From positions 1 to 40,833 of the forward strand of contig CAIQZX010000083.1 in assembly GCA_903876445.1 (NCBI GenBank): a DNA stretch of 40,833 nt. Reading direction: 5' to 3'. Both the position numbers and the translations under genes were made by a program. The first letter of the stretch is position 1. Each line of letters begins with the position of its first letter. Below are positions 36,774 to 37,349 of this stretch, piece by piece. The notes under the pieces were generated by a model that was not told the DNA's origin, ran no database searches, and saw only the letters and a list, made by a program, of their open reading frames with translations. The stretch comes from an uncultured Pseudomonadota bacterium. Its GTDB lineage: Bacteria; Pseudomonadota; Gammaproteobacteria; Methylococcales; Methylomonadaceae.

Positions 36774-36782
36774 ATTATAACA
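36774..36782 (-). promoter_or_regulatory. Extended -10 promoter of csrA
   Basis: On the minus strand TGTTATAAT is a perfect extended -10 (TGn-TATAAT), 67 bp upstream of the csrA ATG. No good -35 is found at 17 to 18 bp, which is typical of extended -10 promoters. Confidence 0.65.
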
Positions 36783-36872
36783 AAATATCAAAAATAATAA
36801 AGTCTAAATCGTTTTTTTAACGGATTGTGCGGAATTTTCAATCAGTAGTCGAAGACTTTAGATTGATTTAAC

Positions 36873-37307
36873 TTACCGTGCGAAATTCCACACCCAGAGC
36901 TGATAGGCTTGGGTCGGGATGGATAGCACTCCTTCTGCGAAGCGGCTTTTGATTTTCTTATTCATAATATAAAATTCCCGTGCGCTCACATTGTTTGTCA
37001 TCGAAAACCAAGAGGCTGACAATATGTGAAAAGCAAACCTATTTGCTATCTAAACCAATCTTAGTTAGATTGTGCAACTAATTTGAGGCGGCAGGTTCTG
37101 TCGTGACTGTAAAGCGTTCCCCAGTCTCTACACGAGTCAAAGCTCGTGATACTGCGAAACGTATTGATGAAAATATCAGTACGGGTCGGTCGAAGCCACC
37201 ACTAGAACGCGATAGCGTTTAGTGGGGGTAGTTCACAATACGTTCTTAATGCGAGCTAATTGAAACTATGACTCAAATATGATGATTTTCAGTGGCAGGT
37301 AGTTCAC
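36873..37307 (+). mobile_element. Decayed or miniature IS200/IS605-family element without intact tnpA/tnpB
   Basis: This block fills most of the roughly 600-bp gene-free stretch between the csrA promoter and the ahpC terminator. TTAC (36873-36876), a typical IS605-group target tetranucleotide, is followed 15 nt later by an imperfect hairpin (36892-36914; ACCCAGAGC / GCTTGGGT, one bulge, loop TGATAG). The right side has a long hairpin (37196-37228; 14 pairs with one mismatch and one bulge, loop GATA) followed at once by TAGTTCAC, an ending I recall from TnpB-type elements. A second AGTGG..GGTAGTTCACA copy lies at 37291-37308. A 45-codon open stretch (37084-37221) could be a TnpB C-terminal remnant. 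No transposase ORF remains. Exact ends are uncertain. Confidence 0.55.
37122..37236 (+). ncRNA. Structured RNA candidate resembling the 3' scaffold of an omega-RNA (reRNA)
   Basis: Three hairpins lie in series on the plus strand. The first is CAGT...ACTG enclosing the perfect stem CACGAG-tcaaag-CTCGTG (37122-37154). The second is GTATTGAT-gaaaat-ATCAGTAC (37161-37182, one G-U). The third is the large stem at 37196-37228, followed by TAGTTCAC. TnpB omega-RNAs have such 3' structures ending at the element's right end, with the guide taken from flanking DNA (here AATACGTTCTTAATGCGAGC). Without tnpB it may be silent, or act in trans. Expression is unknown. Confidence 0.4.
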
Positions 37308-37310
37308 ACA

Positions 37311-37349
37311 AAAAAGCACGAATTGCATTGATTGCAACTCGTGCTTTTT
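37311..37349. terminator. Terminator downstream of ahpC
   Basis: AAAAAGCACGAATTGCA pairs with TGCAACTCGTGCTTTTT (one mismatch) around a short TTGAT loop. A-rich and T-rich edges make it bidirectional. It lies 17 bp beyond the ahpC stop on the minus strand. Confidence 0.9.

Follow-up and report, generated by a model that had tools for sequence, protein, structure and literature searches.

The Locus and the Extent of the Element

The window analyzed here is a stretch of 40,833 nucleotides from an uncultured gammaproteobacterium of the Methylomonadaceae, in which a structured block next to csrA had been predicted, from the letters alone, to be a gene-free relic or miniature of an IS200/IS605-type element at 36820–37308. 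No protein gene fills this block and it is without a transposase, as had been claimed, while its boundaries were drawn too wide, since the copies share only ~36866–37236. The element itself is 365 bp long and occupies 36872–37236 on the plus strand, reading from C(TTACCGTGCG) to (TAG)TTCAC, limits that are given by the sharp ends of its copies and by empty sites.

The assembly that contains the window is a MAG from a genus of Methylococcales (G000; 2.81 Mb, 223 contigs). In a search of this assembly ~40 places matched window positions 36780–37340, most of them at 80–95% identity, and the full-length matches started near 36866 and stopped at 37236, so that the check named in the original prediction, multi-copy occurrence with sharp ends, came out in its favor. 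The aligned copies end sharply with unrelated flanks on both sides; their left tip reads TTTAACTGACCGTGCG... and their right tip ...GTTTAGTGG(T)GGTAGTTCAC, and the two tips have no inverted repeat in common. In the same assembly 33 left ends and 38 right ends were read, and additional right ends that the nucleotide search had not scored were recovered by a protein search. Thirty-two of the 33 left ends continue into the middle of the miniature and one (contig C192) into tnpA, hence at least 32 miniature copies are present, a lower bound in that contigs with a right end only may belong to the same copies as the left ends. Many contigs of the assembly terminate within the element; in MAGs of this kind such elements account for many of the contig breaks. 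Over the 117–140 bp of right end that they contain, eight contigs match the RE2 consensus without a difference, which points to recent spread, and of the expression "relic or miniature" the second term holds, while the first holds only in part. The copies adjoin many different genes and are mostly intergenic, which makes the location beside csrA, on which the prediction had placed weight, incidental.

Anatomy of the Miniature

The left end (36872–36958, plus strand) is common to tnpA-bearing elements, with 96% identity over 92 bp to left ends of the congener G008 that enter tnpA. It harbors the predicted bulged subterminal hairpin (36887–36919, plus strand; arms 36887–36896 and 36910–36919), which corresponds to helix 1 of the copy alignment and is paired in 91.7% of cells. 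This hairpin is perfect in most copies and mismatched in the window copy, and the left end of the window copy does not fold outstandingly (z −0.9) because its left stem has mismatches that are absent from most sister copies. The TTAC that had been taken as the end of the element (36873–36876) reads TGAC in most copies, the fixed motif being TTTAAC. In two further copies (L027:1–271, minus strand; L048:1002–1182, plus strand) the left-end hairpin has its inner part in the opposite orientation, with AAGCCTATCAGCTCT in place of AGAGCTGATAGGCTT, as though its loop had been turned over.

The middle segment (36959–37079, plus strand) is specific to the miniature, without a convincing match in the autonomous copies, and comprises two small hairpins and the inner inverted repeat that had been noticed at 36986–37029, with TCACATTGTTTGTCA at 36986–37000 and TGACAATATGTGA at 37017–37029. 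Its helices 3–6 covary or are kept, and helix 3, formed by the inverted repeat, shows A-U 23 versus G-C 9 and G-C 22 versus U-A 9. A promoter-like site lies within the element at 36995–37023, at chance level (two such sites in the stretch against 1.8 expected).

The right end (37080–37236, plus strand) corresponds by homology to the final 157 bp of the autonomous element (86% identity to L077, 1222–1376), and its greater part, ~37085–37236 on the plus strand, is the presumed omega-RNA scaffold, on the evidence of right-end homology, folding (z −3.8) and covariation. Position, size (~152 nt) and stems are those expected of the omega-RNA of a TnpB, which is where the prediction had placed such a segment. 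In the same stretch a leftover C-terminal frame of TnpB persists (37085–37222, plus strand), reading EAAGSVVTVKRSP...PPLERDSV followed by TAG and matching residues ~366–413 of the intact TnpB P0001; in the miniature this frame is not evidence of a protein. The serial hairpins that had been described are located between 37088 and 37188. The subterminal right-end hairpin (37199–37225, plus strand; helix 13, 95.4% of cells paired) is also present and is followed by TAGTTCAC as stated, although it consists of 8 + 3 pairs with a bulge and not of 14 bp. A 16-nt guide, AATACGTTCTTAATGC, is predicted in the flanking host DNA at 37237–37252 (plus strand) from the anatomy of the ISDra2 reRNA (PMC8612924).

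Insertion Target and Pre-Insertion Sites

The insertion target TTTAA lies on the left side only (36867–36871, plus strand in the window), as seen from the left ends of the window's assembly, 30/33 of which show TTTAAC, and from congener sites; it is also the expected TAM of the cognate TnpB. As had been anticipated, empty sites exist, the element being absent at orthologous positions in congeners that have pre-insertion sites of the TTTAA type. CAAAACA directly follows the copy L026, and the empty site (insertion point marked by a slash) is GGTTTAA/CAAAACA in the congener G001 and GGATTAA/CAAAACA in G008; likewise GATGTTGG directly follows the copy L029, with TTTTAA/GATGTTGG in G012, and G003 has TTTAAT at the site matching the left flank of the copy L031. 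From these pre-insertion sites it follows that the target is TTTAA, that the first base of the element is C and its last bases TTCAC, and that insertion occurs without target duplication. TTTAAC was thereby replaced by TTTAA as the target, and TTAC was rejected as it is not conserved among copies. ISHp608, an element of the IS605 group, has TTAC as its target, whereas in the present family only a minority of copies have TTAC. The moaC/ubiG interval was discarded as an empty site, gene order there not being conserved.

A copy of G001 between gpmI and a rhodanese gene (L070, contig C3) is missing from congeners, which mostly have TTTAAT on the left side of the insertion. This site is unclean, in that ~50 bp are absent to the right of the copy: in congeners ATTAA stands directly before the right flank, ~50 bp from TTTAAT, and the stretch between is lost in G001, as though an adjacent deletion had made use of a second target-like site. 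The empty site of L026 is not clean either, its left flank being rearranged and carrying a palindrome-bearing sequence, CCCCGCCGTTCAGGGCGGGGAGGATGTCAAG, which is probably another dispersed repeat, since partial matches to it occur at several places in the congeners tested.

The Parent IS605-Type Element

Both ends of the miniature are of the predicted IS605 type, being shared with an element that carries Y1 tnpA and tnpB. A tblastn search with a congener TnpB identified two intact TnpB frames of 417 aa in G001 (C66 = L077, frame at 117–1361; C35 = L079), of which the last residues, EAAGSVVTVKRSPSSKRVKARGDVKGTDILSSGQSKPPLERDSV, are the peptide still encoded by the right ends of the miniatures. 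In Pfam this TnpB comprises OrfB_IS605, Cas12f1-like_TNB and HTH_OrfB_IS605; the RuvC and zinc-ribbon families are intact upstream of the same right end, and its best natural relative of solved structure is the TnpB of ISDra2, homologous across residues 1–365 (E 1e-60). JAQTOX010000009.1 (Methylococcales bacterium isolate STB_102) begins with the sequence of contig C66. The right ends of the miniatures are 97–100% identical to those of TnpB-bearing copies.

Left ends leading into the 3′ portion of a Y1 tnpA were found in G001 (C138, C147), in G008 (three read) and in C192 of the window's assembly, and in all three genomes tnpA points towards the left end. On C66 and C35 tnpB is immediately preceded by the 5′ end of a tnpA that points away from it. 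Pieced together from the contigs of G001 and the broken C192, the layout of the parent appears to be that of IS605; an autonomous copy complete on one contig was not seen among the contigs read. For the TnpA fragment encoded on C192, the nearest relative of solved structure is the transposase of ISHp608, which itself has subterminal hairpins and divergent genes.

C192 is the only gene-bearing copy in the window's assembly, and both its genes are broken: ~30 internal residues seem to be missing from its TnpA in comparison with other Y1 proteins, and tnpB is incomplete as well. An intact TnpA or TnpB of this clade was not found in that assembly, and the present driver of the miniatures may sit in unbinned, collapsed contigs. 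A TnpB of another clade is encoded in the same genome on the minus strand of L058 (contig C170, 2124–3831), adjoining an apparent IS607-type serine recombinase gene, and several further TnpB fragments occur there.

RNA Structure of the Right End and the Search for Selection on Its Stems

The right 152 nt of the window copy fold at −57.7 kcal/mol, against a mean of −41.7 kcal/mol (z −3.8), beating all 200 dinucleotide shuffles, and the right 152 nt of the parent have a z of −2.3. Across the copy alignment a 75-pair structure is formed in 95.6% of cells; as this structure was taken from one copy, the percentage is biased in its favor and double changes are the stronger evidence. Pair-keeping double changes number 83, compared with 37.8 ± 4.4 in shuffles and 0–39 with slid partners, and the clearest compensatory case is helix 10, where one subfamily has CAGT/ACTG and the other CATCT/AGATG. 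RNAalifold gave only 16 pairs on the mixed alignment of full and partial copies, because half-copies add gaps, and the stated structure was counted instead. In L038, L044 and L045 the right ends are mosaic, the first hairpin being of RE2 type and the second of RE1 type, hence whole hairpins seem to have been swapped between subfamilies. The deletion copy L025 is among those whose right-end segment is not intact.

Selection on the stems or on the leftover frame of individual copies was looked for in the window's assembly and not found. Private substitutions in its right ends amount to 0.0126 per cell where columns are paired, against 0.0159 where they are unpaired, those within stems keep the pair in 18/57 cases (20.2 expected), and there is no clear codon-position bias in the leftover frame. 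Since private mutations mostly show no stem selection, the covariation is most simply inherited from the source lineages, and copies seem to drift and decay after insertion. Preserved stems with lost coding capacity, which the prediction had singled out, are thus a property of the family and are not shown for individual copies.

Two observations in congeners are no more than suggestive of stem selection. G009 has a separately deleted miniature (L190, C74, 1–179), in which 47 bp of left end are fused to the tnpB tail and right end, and in three miniatures of G001 the loop at alignment columns 320–341 varies and the frame is altered, while the stem is perfect, kept once via a compensatory change. 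Template-switch correction of hairpins could also produce compensatory changes without selection.

Classification and Proposed Mechanism

The element occurs in many copies with sharp ends, including recent identical ones, inserts without duplication 3′ of TTTAA, has no transposase gene of its own, carries subterminal palindromes in place of terminal inverted repeats, and shares its ends with a gene-bearing element that encodes a Y1 (HUH) TnpA. It is therefore very likely a non-autonomous, PATE-type derivative of the IS605 group that is moved in trans by TnpA. The family is new and its kind is already known, because PATEs and PATE-like elements are direct precedents. The PATEs of Haloquadratum walsbyi are transposase-free, reach high copy number and arose from IS605-type elements by deletion of the core, and the present element resembles them in that its palindromes are near-terminal while terminal inverted repeats and target duplication are both lacking (PMC3119063). 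It differs from the PATEs described there in its bacterial host and in that the whole tnpB-3′/right-end (omega-RNA) segment is kept in nearly all copies, the PATE work, of 2011, predating omega-RNA (PMC3119063). The PATE-like element of Halanaerobium hydrogeniformans, in which a left-end hairpin is joined to the final 58 nt of tnpB and a complete right end of 160 nt, has the same anatomy, but is single-copy, in contrast to the dozens of copies with a middle segment found here (PMC7290912).

Two other classes of explanation fare poorly. A host-maintained cis-regulatory RNA, leader or terminator of csrA would fit the strong structure ~165 bp upstream of the csrA start, yet dozens of copies adjoin unrelated genes, the element is absent upstream of csrA in six congeners, and the structured strand is opposite to csrA. 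Rfam gave no match in 36820–37308 either, including its IscB/HEARO omega-RNA model, with which a search had been proposed. As an account of the whole family the csrA reading is already refuted, and it is extremely improbable. Equally improbable is a classical MITE of a DDE transposase or a REP/RAYT repeat: the element is short, palindromic, multi-copy and mostly intergenic, but terminal inverted repeats and target duplication are absent, the ends are those of an IS605-type element with TnpB, and the associated TnpA is nearest to ISHp608. As for a REP/RAYT system, what was observed is an ISHp608-like TnpA associated with a 365-bp unit that has fixed tips.

In the PATE-type reading, the parent carries, from left to right, the left end, Y1 (HUH) tnpA directed towards it, and tnpB directed towards a right end that overlaps the 3′ part of tnpB; of this parent the miniature has kept ~87 bp of left end and 157 bp of right end, with the middle segment between them. 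TnpA acting in trans probably binds the two subterminal hairpins in single-stranded DNA and moves the element by peel-and-paste, with cleavage 3′ of TTTAA and 3′ of TTCAC. If a cognate TnpB were available and the right end transcribed, the latter might yield an omega-RNA whose guide would come from the downstream flank and whose TAM would be TTTAA. In ISDra2 of Deinococcus radiodurans TnpB binds an RNA of ~150 nt that spans the 3′ end of tnpB, the right end and ~16 nt of flank, and its TAM is identical to the insertion target (PMC8612924). The target is TTTAA here and TTGAT in ISDra2, and the miniature lacks both tnpA and tnpB. TTTAA is the known TAM of ISAam1 TnpB (PMC12908284, PMC12433972) and thus the same as the target here, a comparison of the motif alone.

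Passenger or Guide RNA

The omega-RNA segment is probably a passenger, retained because the end points of the deletion fell upstream of it by chance, its stems stemming from tnpB-bearing parents and without use by TnpB. This reading accords with private substitutions that are not clearly rarer in right-end stems, with stem substitutions that keep the pair no more than expected, with the broken tnpB of the window's assembly and with the chance level of the promoter-like site. It is harder to reconcile with two independent miniatures, the type of the window and that of G009, that retain the whole segment, as far less should do for transposition; with the copies of the window's assembly, among which those without the whole right-end segment are few exceptions; and with the three G001 miniatures whose stem is perfect despite changes in loop length and frame. 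That the right ends are instead working omega-RNAs, used in trans by autonomous TnpB so that empty donor sites are recut and gene-free copies retained, is rather unlikely. Position, length (~152 nt), folding and the identity of TAM and target agree with the ISDra2 reRNA (PMC8612924), right ends are nearly identical to those of TnpB-bearing copies, and subfamilies covary; against this, the window's assembly is without an intact cognate TnpB, and ongoing stem selection is not seen within its own copies. The segment is structured, combines the 3′ end of tnpB with the right end and runs to the right tip, and an intact cognate TnpB is present in the congener G001, while collapsed repeats may be missing from the window's assembly.

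The most far-reaching version, in which dozens of dispersed trans-acting omega-RNAs, each programmed by its insertion site, would be loaded by a single TnpB of an autonomous copy for retention or drive-like spread of the gene-free elements, is unlikely. If true, it would account for the two independent miniatures that keep the whole right-end segment. A search of largely open-access literature returned no paper on TnpB-less omega-RNA elements, which is weak evidence. TnpB is thought to guard its own transposon against loss, and a gene-free family of high copy number in which the guide-RNA segment is complete offers a natural way to test whether this protection extends to non-autonomous relatives. 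For a direct assay, the analysis provides the precise ends of the element, its target TTTAA and, from a congener, an intact partner TnpB.

The csrA Neighborhood

The upstream neighbor of csrA is lysC in all six congeners examined. In the genome of the window this order breaks at ~36820, ~50 bp from the element, and a search of its assembly did not find lysC. Between the break and the element lie ~47 bp of unrelated DNA (36820–36866). An effect on csrA or a role of the element in the rearrangement is possible. On the other side, the second TAGTTCAC (37300–37307) that had been included in the predicted block is outside the element; it falls within CAGTGGCAGGTAGTTCAC (37290–37307), which resembles the last 18–20 nt of the right end and is perhaps the tip of an older, decayed copy. 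The inverted repeat AAAAAGCACGAATTGCA/TGCAACTCGTGCTTTTT at 37310–37349, 3′ of a peroxiredoxin gene, is probably the terminator of that gene.
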